A stretch of 64,000 nt of DNA from a virus. The notes beneath the pieces are model-generated. The model did no database searches. It was not told the DNA's origin and saw nothing but the letters and a program-made list of their open reading frames with translations. Below are positions 3,518 through 62,896 of the stretch, piece by piece. The DNA lies in the IMG/VR virus record IMGVR_UViG_3300041411_000080, positions 248,001-312,000 of that record; one strand, written 5' to 3'. Position 1 is the first letter of the stretch, and the number at the start of each line of letters is the position of its first letter. Made by a program: the position numbers and the translations under genes.

Positions 3518-5677
3518 TTAGTAGAAGTCCGAGATGAGACGGGTGTTCTTCTTATCCTGAAGCATGATACCCAAGGATTCCATGATCAGATAGAAGCTAC
3601 CCATCGTGTTAGCGATAGTTTGACGTACGTTTGCTACGCGGGTGATAACCTCAGGAATACCATGGTTCTCAACTACGGACATTGGTACGTGGAAGTTGGT
3701 AATGCCTTTCTTATTGTTCTCGAGTGCCCACTTCTTCAAACGCATAACCAAAGCTTTATCTTCGATCGTATCAAGCCATGCTTCAAAGCGAGTACGGTTG
3801 TCGATAGTCACAGAGATCTTAACGAAGGAATACGGTGGTGCTTCCAAGAAGCCAAACGATGGTTCGAATACTTCTTTCCAGAACTTGTACTTGGCATAGG
3901 TAGCGTTAGTCTCAGACTTGTATGCATCAAGCTTCTTCACTTTACCAGTCGTCAGGTATTCTGCCTTACCAGTATAGATCGAGGTCATGATGTTACGCTC
4001 AATGTCACCAATCTGTTTAAGCATTGCTGGTAAGTCGAGGGTTTCTTCGCGCTTGATTGTAGTGATGACGTGTTCCATCATCTTCTTAGCAGCTTTGTTG
4101 ATACGAGGTGGAACTTTAGAATCTCGTAGCCCAACACCTTTAACTTCCATACGTGCCTTAGCGAACATGATACCCTCTACCGCATCCTGAGACGCGTAGT
4201 AGTGTTTCGATCGGGTAGTCAGGCTCAGTACTGCGAAGTAGTATTCGTTCTTCATAGCAAGCAGGCGGAGCTTCTTGGATGTAACACCCATGTTGATCGA
4301 CTGCAATGCCAGAATGTGCATAACCACTTCGGACACCAAGAACACCAAAGCAAATACCAATCGCTTGGCTTCATCACTAAAGGTCACACGACCAAAGAAT
4401 TCTTCCACCCAGTATTGCATGGTGAACATAGTCGAGTCTGTGTCGGAGATTACTGCTGCACGGCGATAAGCCGTAGGGAACGCGTGGATACTTGGAGGTA
4501 CGTTCTTAGTCAAGAACAAAGCCTTGATAAACAGAATGTACTTATTCAACACTTGGGAGATATTGTTACCGGTAGCGTAGATCAGATCAAACACTTCCGG
4601 GTTTTCTTCAGCGAGCTTCTCGTTGTTACGACCTTTGATCGTATTGAAGTTGATGAAGCTTGCCAGCAACTGCATGTCGCCATCGTATTTGTTGTATTCG
4701 TCTTTAGAGACAACTTGATCTGGTGTACCTACACGAGACAACTCATTCAAGAACCCTTTAACGAGGTCTGGGTTGTATTTGTAAGTGTGGTATAGATCAC
4801 CAACGTACATAATAGCTGCACGGCCAATCGGGGACATACCCGCTGCGAGTTTACGCAGCTGTGCAGTGTATTCAGGGTTGGACCAGTAGTGGGTAGTCGA
4901 ATAGAGGATCATGTCAATGATCTCATCGGCTGTAGGGTAATGCATATTGAAACGCTGCATGCAGTCTTCAAGCATCTTAAGGTCGGTGTTATTGACCAGA
5001 CTGAGCATATTAGCTTTAGTCACTTCTGGGGAGTAGTAGTGACGGTTACCCATGATGAACTTCTCATTGTTTGCGTTAGCATAAGAAGTTGCAGTACGAC
5101 AAGTAGATGTCAGACTCGAGTGGGTAGACTTGTAATAGAGAATCGTTGCAGCACTAACGGTGGCTCCTGAGTAGGAGTTATTGTTAATTTTGAAGTTCTC
5201 TTGTTCGCCTTTACGAACCTGTGCTAATTCGAGTGCTTCAGCTGTACCCTCACCTTCCAACCGCATTTGCTCTTTCTTAACCGCTTTACGGTTAGCAACG
5301 CCTTCTTCAATGTACTTGGCATGAGTAGATGCTCGGATTTCTTCTGGTAGATAAACAGTCATGCTCGGACTGAGCAGCAGTTTCTGCTTCTTTACACGAC
5401 CAAGGTATTGACTGAATCGGACAACCTTCTTCTCCCGATCGCCATTCTCACCTTTGTCCAGAATCATCGTCTTAGGATCGTTGAGTTCGAACTGACCACC
5501 GGGGGCCATAGTCGACTGTACATAAGCCAAGCATTTATCCAGATCATCTCCGGTCATGCTAGAAAGGTACAGCGCTGTGTCACGCATCAGTGGGTTAACA
5601 ATCTCGAGTTCACGCTGATATTCAGAAATGTCTTGGTAAAAGGGATTTGGTTTTACATCGGTGTGAGTTTGTTCCAT
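3518..5677 (-). CDS. DNA polymerase family B, C-terminal half (palm B/C motifs, thumb)
   Basis: A 719-residue divergent family B DNA polymerase fragment. Residues 103-135 (SPSMTVYLPEEI ... NRKAVKKEQ) match the palm segment before the fingers. K163 to A172 (KINNNSYSGA) is motif B. SDTDS at 411-415 is motif C with both catalytic aspartates. TRSKHYY at 489-494 resembles the KKxY motif, and a thumb-like region follows. No motif A (D-x2-SLYPS) and no exonuclease domain precede motif B: the first 100 residues are unlike any family B N-terminus. The gene therefore looks like one half of a split polymerase, with exonuclease and motif A encoded elsewhere. I recall split polymerases in phiKZ relatives such as SPN3US. 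It starts after a strong GGAGG. It would replicate phage DNA, presumably inside the phage nucleus. Confidence 0.8.
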   Translation of the reverse strand: MEQTHTDVKPNPFYQDISEYQRELEIVNPLMRDTALYLSSMTGDDLDKCLAYVQSTMAPGGQFELNDPKTMILDKGENGDREKKVVRFSQYLGRVKKQKLLLSPSMTVYLPEEIRASTHAKYIEEGVANRKAVKKEQMRLEGEGTAEALELAQVRKGEQENFKINNNSYSGATVSAATILYYKSTHSSLTSTCRTATSYANANNEKFIMGNRHYYSPEVTKANMLSLVNNTDLKMLEDCMQRFNMHYPTADEIIDMILYSTTHYWSNPEYTAQLRKLAAGMSPIGRAAIMYVGDLYHTYKYNPDLVKGFLNELSRVGTPDQVVSKDEYNKYDGDMQLLASFINFNTIKGRNNEKLAEENPEVFDLIYATGNNISQVLNKYILFIKALFLTKNVPPSIHAFPTAYRRAAVISDTDSTMFTMQYWVEEFFGRVTFSDEAKRLVFALVFLVSEVVMHILALQSINMGVTSKKLRLLAMKNEYYFAVLSLTTRSKHYYASQDAVEGIMFAKARMEVKGVGLRDSKVPPRINKAAKKMMEHVITTIKREETLDLPAMLKQIGDIERNIMTSIYTGKAEYLTTGKVKKLDAYKSETNATYAKYKFWKEVFEPSFGFLEAPPYSFVKISVTIDNRTRFEAWLDTIEDKALVMRLKKWALENNKKGITNFHVPMSVVENHGIPEVITRVANVRQTIANTMGSFYLIMESLGIMLQDKKNTRLISDFY

Positions 5678-60491: not shown

Positions 60492-60522
60492 AATGTTATA
60501 GACTTTCAAACTGGTGAGTGTT

Positions 60523-61164
60523 ATGATCGAACTATTAATAGTTGAGGAAAAGATAGTAACTGGTCCTATTCCAGGTACTCCCACGCTTTTAGCGGGTAAC
60601 GATCAACTAGGTTGGTATGGTGAAGTGCCAGTAACAGATTTTATAAATGGTCCAGATCTAGCTACACGCGTGGGTCTAACTTTGGGTACTAGTCAAAACC
60701 CAACCGGAGCATGGCTAAAGTTTGCCTATCAAGGTAAAATACTTTTTATTGCTAAGCAAACATATCGCCACTCTATATCGATGGATGCTTTCCTCAATGC
60801 ACAGATTGCAACTGGCAATAGAACTGTAACCATAGGTGGTCGAACCTACCGGATAAGATTGATGACCGGTACTGACGGTGCAGGTGAACTGGTAACCGGT
60901 GGGGAATGGAATGCACTGATGTATCGCGTAGCTGCCGGTACACAAATTCCCGCTGAAGATAAGTGGGCGAACTACACCACATCTGAAATGAGTTATGGTT
61001 CAGGCGGCAATGGCTATATTACCTGGTGTCGTGAAGTTAGAGCCTCAGCAGGCGCTATATACGCCACACGTGGTAACGGCAGTATAACAGCCATCCATGG
61101 CTATACCAAAGCCACCGCATCTTTTCAATATGGTTGGCGACCAGTACTTGAGTTAGTTCCATGA
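60523..61164 (+). CDS. Single-domain GWRP surface-type protein, 213 residues
   Basis: The start at 60523 (MIELLIVEEKIVTGPIPGTP) has GGTGA upstream. Contains one copy of the domain: WYGEVPVTDF, GAWLKFAYQG, ILFIAKQTYR, IGGRTYRIRL, GEWNALMY and ending GWRPVLELVP. The closest relative by layout is the second domain of the 411-residue gene. Likely a virion decoration or receptor-binding protein. Confidence 0.75.
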   Translation: MIELLIVEEKIVTGPIPGTPTLLAGNDQLGWYGEVPVTDFINGPDLATRVGLTLGTSQNPTGAWLKFAYQGKILFIAKQTYRHSISMDAFLNAQIATGNRTVTIGGRTYRIRLMTGTDGAGELVTGGEWNALMYRVAAGTQIPAEDKWANYTTSEMSYGSGGNGYITWCREVRASAGAIYATRGNGSITAIHGYTKATASFQYGWRPVLELVP

Positions 61165-61171
61165 GGTTACT

Positions 61172-61879
61172 ATGATTGAATTAATGTTAACGGTCCCTAA
61201 GCCAGTGGTCAACCCTTGGCCGGCAGGTATCCCTGGACCGCAGACCATAGCTACAGGTGATCAGAATATCGGTTTCTTTGGTGAAGTGTCGGGTACTGAT
61301 TTTATTACTTACCCTGATCTACAAACCGCAGTTGGCTTTACAACTGGCAACGCGATGAACCCGACTGGTGGATGGCTAAAACTAGCTTATAAAGGGAACG
61401 TCCAGTTCATCTCTAAACTTAGTGTTAGGAACAACGTTTCTTGGGCAGCTATGAATACGCTGGGTATTGTATCAGCCGCTCAGAATAAATTGATTACTAT
61501 TAAAGGTAAGGTTTACCGTCTACGCCTGATAAATGGTGTCAATGTCGACCCGTATCCAGTTAACGCCGATGATGCCACTGGTGGACCATACACAACTGGT
61601 ACTGAATGGAACCATCTTATCTATGGATTGCTATCAACCGCAGTTGGTGCACAGAACCTAGAGGGTCCGGCGTTGGCCACCTACGGTACTACTGATTTGG
61701 GACTGTCTCCATTTGGCAACGGTACGAGTATCCTTGTTAAGGAACTGGGTCCGGGTCCAGTGTCTATGGTTCGTGGTAACGCTAGTGGTGCTGTGCGTGG
61801 ACTTTATCGTTATGCAGCGCTAGCTAACGCGGATACGATCCGTGGATGGAAACCTGTGCTGGAATACGTCAGCGGTTAA
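61172..61879 (+). CDS. Single-domain GWRP surface-type protein, 235 residues
   Basis: MIELMLTVPKPVVNPWPAGI after GAGG. The same domain with an insertion near residues 130-150 (NVDPYPVNADDATGGP). Ends GWKPVLEYVSG. Seven bases after the previous gene, so co-transcribed. Third and most diverged member of the set. Confidence 0.75.
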   Translation: MIELMLTVPKPVVNPWPAGIPGPQTIATGDQNIGFFGEVSGTDFITYPDLQTAVGFTTGNAMNPTGGWLKLAYKGNVQFISKLSVRNNVSWAAMNTLGIVSAAQNKLITIKGKVYRLRLINGVNVDPYPVNADDATGGPYTTGTEWNHLIYGLLSTAVGAQNLEGPALATYGTTDLGLSPFGNGTSILVKELGPGPVSMVRGNASGAVRGLYRYAALANADTIRGWKPVLEYVSG

Positions 61880-61978: not shown

Positions 61979-62065
61979 GGAGAGGTTCCCGAGCGGCTCA
62001 AAGGGACCAGACTGTAAATCTGGCGTCTATCGACTTCCAAGGTTCAAATCCTTGTCTCTCCACCA
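61979..62065 (+). tRNA. tRNA-Tyr (GTA)
   Basis: 87 bases including encoded CCA. Class II tRNA with long variable arm; anticodon arm CCAGA-CTGTAAA-TCTGG; T-arm GGTTCAAATCC. First gene of the tRNA operon. Decodes UAU/UAC. Confidence 0.93.
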
Positions 62066-62332: not shown

Positions 62333-62408
62333 TCCATGATAGCTCAGTTGGTAGAGCCCACCGCTGTTAACGGTGTTGTCCCTGGTTCGAGTCCAGGTCA
62401 TGGAGCCA
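62333..62408 (+). tRNA. tRNA-Asn (GTT)
   Basis: 76 bases with encoded CCA. Acceptor TCCATGA/TCATGGA; D-arm GCTC/GAGC; anticodon arm CACCG-CTGTTAA-CGGTG; T-arm CCTGG-TTCGAGT-CCAGG. All stems perfect. Confidence 0.95.
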
Positions 62409-62448: not shown

Positions 62449-62524
62449 ACATGCCTAGCTCAATTGGCAGAGCAGCTGCCTCCAAAGCAGTTGGTTCCAA
62501 GTTCGATTCTTGGGGTGTGTGCCA
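62449..62524 (+). tRNA. tRNA-Trp (CCA)
   Basis: 76 bases with encoded CCA. Acceptor ACATGCC/GGTGTGT with two G-U pairs; anticodon loop CTCCAAA with anticodon CCA; T-loop TTCGATT. Decodes UGG. Confidence 0.93.
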
Positions 62525-62528
62525 AATT

Positions 62529-62816
62529 GAATGTAATGTAGAACTCGGGTTCAACTCCTGAGATTTGGACGGCCCGCCTAACAGGGCTATTAGCTTAAGC
62601 TGGTTAAAGCGGCATTACATTCGACTTAATCCCTGTGCACGGGGATACAATGTTCATGTGGATTACGATAGTGTGAGCGCCTCGTAAGCGTGAGAAGACC
62701 CTAGGCCTCAGGACAGAGGGAAAAGACCCGTAGCCACCGGAGAGAACATTGTAGTGCGTATACTTGGACGTCCCTCCATCGAACTGAAGCGTAGTTGGGA
62801 AACCAGTGTGATATTT
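62529..62816 (+). ncRNA. Structured noncoding RNA with permuted tRNA-like arms
   Basis: About 290 bases, no coding frame. GAATGTAATG (62529-62538) pairs perfectly with CATTACATTC (62613-62622). Inside, in order: a T-arm-like hairpin (62544-62562, loop TTCAACT), a GCCC/GGGC hairpin (62572-62587), and a D-arm-like hairpin (62593-62610, GCTT/AAGC with GG in the loop). Junction spacing fits a tRNA opened at the anticodon stem, but the acceptor strands do not pair. A second perfect ten-base stem, TACAATGTTC (62646-62655) with GAACATTGTA (62744-62753), encloses an anticodon-arm-like hairpin with loop CTCGTAA (62681-62687). The segment ends at the operon terminator. Not identifiable as tmRNA: no CCA end or tag frame found. 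Confidence 0.5.
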
Positions 62817-62846
62817 GAGAGTCCTTCGGGACTCTCTTATGTCGTC
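62817..62846 (+). terminator. Terminator of the tRNA operon, CTTATGTCGTC tail
   Basis: GAGAGTCC-TTCG-GGACTCTC, eight base pairs, followed by TTATGTCGTCT. Confidence 0.87.
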
Positions 62847-62896
62847 TCAAGGATTACCAGACGGTATAGATGTATAGTTAACTAATCGAGGTGAGT

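Follow-up and report, generated by a model that had tools for sequence, protein, structure and literature searches.

The window, a stretch of 64,000 nucleotides, is one part of a source virus record of 320,858 bases. The virus is a giant phage of the Pseudomonas type, and for the DNA around the two RNAs described here, E1 and E2, the jumbo phages 201phi2-1 and Viktualia are the nearest named relatives. The plus strand, on which all RNA features of the window given below lie, carries a tRNA cluster called by both ARAGORN and Rfam, made up of tRNA-Tyr (61979-62065), tRNA-Asn (62333-62408) and, directly 5' of E1, tRNA-Trp (62449-62524), so that the last base of the cluster is 62524. Two adjacent paralogues of 216 and 235 amino acids (60514-61164 and 61172-61879) stand 5' of the cluster, and the same homologous family is also found near E1 at loci L028 and L062.

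Behind the cluster follows the segment 62529-62816, which holds no open reading frame of note. An earlier note, made from the sequence alone, had taken it for a noncoding RNA of the tRNA operon, with the arms of a tRNA in permuted order under a long closing stem, and was right in this: the T-arm, the acceptor-like and D-arm-like hairpins and both long stems are all present. The covariation among homologues that it had proposed to look for in the two stems is strongly positive in both. However, the segment is not a permuted tRNA with an extension in a single molecule. It consists of two independent and unrelated RNAs, E1 (62529-62622) and E2 (62630-62753), because homologues carry either one without the other. 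E2 occurs without E1 in five records (201phi2-1, Viktualia, the large IMG/VR phages G012 and G013, and the short-contig fragment G014), and many phages have E1 without E2. One RNA of 290 nt, in which the permuted tRNA would be followed by a functional extension, would fit the gap of only 7 nt in the window, yet it is highly improbable given that each part occurs alone and that in genome G001 (locus L014) the two lie 1.1 kb apart with two tRNAs, tRNA-Asn and tRNA-Trp, between them.

The fold of E1

E1 is represented by a 20-row alignment (A1) and by a covariance model built from it (R1), which scores the window's E1 at 97.3 bits and finds one copy in the window's genome. Its two ends form a closing helix in the place of the anticodon stem, in which 62529-62539 (GAATGTAATGT) pairs with 62612-62622 (GCATTACATTC) over 11 pairs, one of them G-U. 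Reading inwards, the 5' strand is followed by AGAA (62540-62543, columns 15-18 of A1), the equivalent of the variable region, and by a T-arm with a 6-bp stem and the loop UUCAACU (62544-62562). The 3' strand of the acceptor comes next: its inner two positions (62563-62564) pair with 62589-62590, a 6-nt bulge UUGGAC (62565-62570) contains a GGA that is invariant in the family, and GGCCC (62571-62575) pairs with GGGCU (62584-62588), GCCC/GGGC being invariant. The acceptor end is sealed by the loop GCCUAACA (62576-62583), whose GCC...AACA is conserved over the 23 loci. The 5' acceptor strand GGGCUAU (62584-62590) then leads through an invariant UA (62591-62592), corresponding to tRNA positions 8-9, into the D-arm GCUU-AAGCUGGUUA-AAGC (62593-62610). 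Like that of a tRNA, the acceptor stem thus comprises seven pairs; its 3' strand carries a bulge of the general form NNGGAM, and its closing loop is GCC-N(1-5)-AACA. The earlier note had considered the acceptor pairing to fail; the 7-bp stem exists, and was overlooked because the bulge hides its inner pairs.

The thermodynamic and comparative evidence for this fold agree. The region 62529-62624 folds at -34.2 kcal/mol (z -3.6), and one of 200 shuffled sequences did equally well. In the 20-row alignment, 22 of the 30 pairs show changes on both sides, and the covariation of 0.508, against 0.166 in shuffles, was reached by none of 500 shuffles and collapsed in controls where one strand was slid by 1-3 columns. 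Changes on both sides affect all 14 alignment pairs of the closing helix, all six of the T-stem and both inner acceptor pairs, 7:66 (UA 13, AU 7) and 6:67 (CG 16, UA 4), which are kept in 20/20 rows. The outer acceptor stem and the D-stem are invariant or nearly so, and the pair G46:Y67 appears as GU 14 times and as GC five times. Across homologues the closing helix varies from 6 to 27 contiguous pairs and is free in sequence, while the bulge, the GCCC/GGGC stem, the GCC...AACA loop and UAGCUUA are nearly fixed. Since the closing helix is variable and the acceptor end is not, E1 seems to do its work through the tRNA-like end.

We further put the halves of E1 back into the order of a tRNA, supplied them with CCA and a borrowed anticodon loop, and submitted them to ARAGORN. 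Un-permuted in this way, 15/20 sequences were called as tRNA when the bulge was removed and 2/20 when it was kept, against 0/20 in natural order and 0/400 of the shuffled controls. In L015, L018, L027 and phage Astolliot the letters of the T- and D-loops drift, and a standard elbow is therefore not universal. Simple tRNA mimicry leaves both the GGA bulge and the GCC...AACA loop unexplained. A pseudoknot between the GG of the bulge and the CC of the loop is possible; both are invariant and hence give no covariation signal. One might also see in the exposed GGA, invariant and flanked by Y and G, a sponge for the GGA-binding regulator CsrA/RsmA. We hold this to be extremely improbable: there is a single GGA site, no A is conserved before it, and the tRNA fold would be left unexplained.

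E2 and its 3' flank

The core of E2 (62630-62753) is described by a 7-row alignment (A2) and a covariance model (R2, 159 bits for the window's E2). It opens with a hairpin (62630-62645; 5/6 pairs covary), followed by the second ten-base long-range stem that had been recognised from the sequence, formed by 62646-62655 (TACAATGTTC) and 62744-62753 (GAACATTGTA), where 9/10 pairs covary. Inside it, the 5' strands of an inner helix (62658-62667) pair with 62729-62737 (4/9 pairs covary) and enclose a nearly invariant inner core (62668-62728), including an anticodon-arm-like hairpin (62675-62691) whose invariance leaves no covariation signal. Altogether 18/25 pairs show changes on both sides, and the covariation was reached by 0/500 shuffles. 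Because this core of about 60 nt is almost invariant even though the flanking helices have changed completely between phages, its sequence suggests a specific binding or catalytic site.

Rfam gave no credible match to E2. It is a structured RNA of 201phi2-1-like jumbo phages, and would most simply be read as another stable RNA that these phages cut out of their tRNA operon. Its 3' flank (62756-62850) is common to 201phi2-1, Viktualia and L061, and partly to L014. This flank contains a hairpin (62817-62836) at which the operon had been thought to terminate; its shape is conserved, but it lacks a U-tract and we do not call it a terminator. A match of RAGATH-32 to the flank (16 bits, E 0.23) is not credible. 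In Viktualia, an insertion of roughly 150 nt with hairpins separates the E2 core from the conserved flank (L006:2630-2800).

Distribution and surroundings of E1

Including the window, E1 is present at 23 distinct loci in about two dozen otherwise different phages, mostly within tRNA operons, where it is mostly unannotated or covered by spurious reading frames. Distant blastn matches to its core came from Cronobacter phage GAP31, Enterobacter phages EC152 and FENT2, Salmonella phages NINP13076, KE22, KE23 and GSW6, and Pseudomonas phages pf16, Psa21, RVTF4, Astolliot, Milchi and Peetri; scanning IMG/VR by pattern turned up about a dozen contigs more. Model R1, built from 20 of the 23 loci with no YrlA among its rows, detected a single full copy in every E1 record searched. 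No copy was detected in 201phi2-1, Viktualia, T4, KVP40, rv5, PVP-SE1 and phiKZ, the absence from the last five of these being established at stricter filters. The distribution is thus patchy, and in the collections searched it is restricted to phages: the E1 pattern gave a single, spurious match in 84,980 bacterial and archaeal genomes, and no E1 was seen in E. coli genomes. An exact T-arm pattern, when run against viral contigs, returned only chance matches in unrelated DNA, and a looser one did the same except at loci also found by the core pattern.

At about ten of the 23 loci a tRNA stands within 0-7 nt of the E1 closing helix on at least one side, and no tRNA was called near E1 at L012, L023, L024 and L027. 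Among the proteins encoded beside E1 no family recurs beyond close relatives, hence E1 apparently needs no partner protein from the phage. It behaves as a tRNA-sized unit of tRNA islands. Its tight spacing between tRNA genes at many loci would also suit a cis element of the operon, that is, a rigid structure that separates the flanking tRNAs or guides their processing and has no role in trans. We regard this as distinctly unlikely, considering the four loci with no tRNA called nearby and the invariance of bulge and loop, which exceeds what spacing would need.

Some tRNA-like sequences of these phages are unusual. At L022, a unit 3' of E1 (5460-5535) has an acceptor, a T-arm, CCA and a long variable arm, and apparently no D-arm; a tRNA match at L022 5407-5530 is spurious and fuses the 5' half of E1 to another, downstream tRNA-like unit. 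The tRNA gene 'tRNA-OTHER' of phage Milchi (L064:1647-1840) measures 194 bases and contains, close to its anticodon, a long insert that may be an intron. Directly 5' of E1 at L008 and L011, a tRNA-like 3' end with CCA (1383-1484 in both) is called as tRNA neither in the record annotation nor by ARAGORN.

E1 among known tRNA-like RNAs

ARAGORN and Rfam (RF00005) make no tRNA call at E1, which has no anticodon loop and, as had been noticed before, no CCA. With permuted tRNA genes, such as those of Cyanidioschyzon and Thermofilum (PMC3978253), it has in common that the 3' half precedes the 5' half, that the two are joined at the acceptor end and that the acceptor pairs. It differs from them in its long, variable closing helix of 6-27 pairs and in the absence of an anticodon loop, of conserved loop sequence and of a splicing motif. 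The review describes permuted tRNAs in algae and archaea and does not mention phages (PMC3978253). E1 could still be imagined as a permuted pre-tRNA that RNase P cuts between A62583 and G62584 and that is trimmed at the 3' side to GCC plus A, giving a charged tRNA-like molecule in two pieces, as in two-piece tmRNA. The 7-bp acceptor, the G-C-C directly after its 3' strand in all members and the closed loop where permuted tRNAs carry an intervening sequence (PMC3978253) are all in keeping with such a route. Yet an AACA leader precedes none of the 130 tRNAs of the E1 loci, in which U prevails at -1 (58%) and A at -2 (62%), and CCA is encoded by 115/130 of these neighbours and never by E1, both of which weaken the RNase P route. 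Moreover, the bulge interrupts the stack of acceptor and T-arm, and the anticodon loop is missing, so that we consider this route quite improbable.

An origin as the remnant of a permuted two-piece tmRNA whose tag region was lost would account for the similar arm order, and the T-loop UUCAACU occurs in tmRNA too. Two-piece tmRNAs with a permuted tRNA-like domain (RF00023, RF01850, RF04321) do occur in phages (PMC9004378), and tag-less permuted tmRNAs of jakobid mitochondria appear in the reference list of PMC10085705. In contrast to two-piece tmRNA, E1 has a canonical D-stem of 4 bp and no tag frame; tmRNA models match nothing beyond the bare T-arm and ARAGORN calls no tmRNA. We give this origin next to no weight. 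The T4 species 1 and 2 RNAs (rnaC and rnaD) are small and stable and also stand last in a phage tRNA operon; by eye, however, their T-arm and acceptor-like 3' end follow the ordinary linear order, and R1 matches neither of them. Altogether, E1 is neither a tRNA nor a tmRNA, nor is it a permuted tRNA able to mature for decoding, in line with the earlier note, which had considered it neither a tmRNA nor a plain permuted tRNA.

Our preferred reading, held at just under even confidence, is that E1 is a free-standing, phage-specific RNA, a tRNA mimic of the Y RNA type that would probably serve as a decoy or tether for a host protein that handles tRNA or other RNA. It folds as a tRNA body, with acceptor, D and T arms and an elbow in a YrlA-like permuted order, the helix joining its ends taking the place of the anticodon arm; with the loop sealing the acceptor end it can, as it stands, neither decode nor be charged. 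The fold, the strong selection upon it, the restriction to phages within the collections searched and the setting in tRNA operons are shown, and expression, action in trans and partner are inferred. E1 would be transcribed within or beside phage tRNA operons, and its location between tRNA ends suggests that its own ends are probably trimmed by tRNA processing. Acting in trans, it could then occupy or tether a host protein that recognises the elbow and acceptor of tRNA. One candidate is PNPase, which the tRNA-like domain of YrlA is reported to bind; another is a defence enzyme that cleaves tRNA. The phage would gain either way, from binding PNPase or from competition with an anticodon nuclease. 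A related proposal, plausible though with chances somewhat below even, puts E1 in a class of viral RNAs of its own. It would be a free-standing permuted tRNA mimic that does not depend on Ro/Rsr, would capture one particular host factor, such as PNPase or a tRNA-targeting defence enzyme, with its sealed and bulged acceptor, and would have spread horizontally among unrelated phage lineages, carried within their tRNA islands.

The closest known counterpart of E1 is YrlA. The consensus of RF02553 consists of a closing stem, four bases, a T-arm, a short acceptor hairpin, a GUAGCUCA D-arm and the closing stem again, and E1 shares this whole order, including the 4 nt, the closed acceptor hairpin and the UAGCU D-arm, as a tRNA mimic that has no anticodon and forms a permuted tRNA-like module under a long closing stem. 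Hence, of the earlier suggestion of a new phage tRNA-like RNA, the tRNA-like noncoding nature stands, but the arm order is not new. YrlA is described as a tRNA mimic that DusA and TruB modify, and its tRNA-like domain is reported to bind PNPase (PMC8394870, where the Salmonella structure PDB 6CU1 is cited); it has also been proposed that YrlA may inhibit an anticodon nuclease competitively (PMC7790460). Phage Y RNAs have been proposed in Listeria phage CKA15 and in mycobacteriophages (PMC12282133).

Whether E1 is itself a YrlA has to be weighed against several differences. The gathering threshold of RF02553 (69 bits) was reached in 0/21 genomes; the window's E1 gave no match at E<=10, and Psa21 scored 20.5 bits, below the threshold. 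GNCGAA / UUGAC, which we take to be the Rsr-site motif pair of the basal stem, is present as a paired site at no E1 locus; the UUGAC of four Seunavirus loci belongs to a promoter-like sequence, and the closing helix shows no conserved sequence in A1. A TROVE (Rsr/Ro60) gene was found in one of 19 E1 genomes (G005, locus L018), counting the phages' own genes. Given the score below the cut-off, the lack of the Rsr-site motif and the single TROVE gene, E1 is not filed as a YrlA. Its location in phage tRNA operons, the 6-nt GGA bulge and the GCC...AACA loop also set it apart, and neither of the latter two is seen in the YrlA match of phage Trax.

That match came from the DNA 5' of the TROVE gene in phages that encode a Ro/Rsr protein, 88 of 50,697 records. 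Upstream of the Ro-like gene, RF02553-like RNAs are present in Gordonia phage Trax (44.1 bits), Streptomyces phage Satis (43.0 bits) and Rhizobium phage RHph_TM39 (36.2 and 37.3 bits), all of which, at 36-44 bits, likewise remain under the threshold of 69. R1 finds the RNA of Trax (E 1.4e-4) and one of RHph_TM39 (E 0.007) in the same places; in Brevundimonas phage Papperlapapp it matches more weakly (E 0.089), again upstream of a Ro-like gene. The YrlA-like RNAs and this weaker match lie at L093:369-485, L094:1240-1348, L095:471-585 and 650-724, and L096:839-929; RHph_TM39 may have two. Junctions of tandem tRNAs, which share with E1 the order of T-arm, acceptor, acceptor and D-arm, also score, up to 34.8 bits with RF02553 and up to 24.9 bits with R1. 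As both models respond to such junctions, common descent of E1 and YrlA is not proven, and their likeness may have arisen by convergence from tandem tRNAs. Unlike a tandem junction, however, E1 has a closing helix that covaries and acceptor strands parted only by a short closed loop.

In its strict form, a kinship with YrlA would make E1 an orphan Y RNA, a divergent YrlA that binds Ro60/Rsr of phage or host through the closing helix and gates the access of RNA to PNPase. The shared permuted module speaks for it, as do the Y RNA proposed near tRNA genes in Listeria phage CKA15 (PMC12282133) and phage G005, which encodes a TROVE protein of 516 amino acids with no YrlA near its gene, so that E1 may serve as a Y RNA in this one case. 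Set against the scarcity of TROVE genes, the sub-threshold or missing RF02553 matches, the absent paired motif and the unconserved closing helix, this strict form appears unlikely. In G005 the TROVE gene (L091:694-2244, minus strand, within L092, G005:5500-12500) lies about 12 kb from E1 and near four tRNAs and a tmRNA gene (L092:3691-4084) with the tag GKNKVVTFRKSAKVARKASLAAA.

We found no description of E1 or E2 in the literature, of which the Y RNA part was covered partially; related phage RNAs may be mentioned there. The usual explanations for tRNA clusters in phages are codon supply or the replacement of tRNAs cut by host defences. A conserved, uncharged tRNA mimic in the clusters of Pseudomonas phages and of enterobacterial phages, which differ widely in kind, suggests instead a role as bait or tether for part of a cluster. 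With about 95 nt, E1 is a compact RNA, proven by covariation and directly testable for host partners, and it extends the principle of the Y RNA tRNA mimic to genomes that are mostly without a Ro protein.
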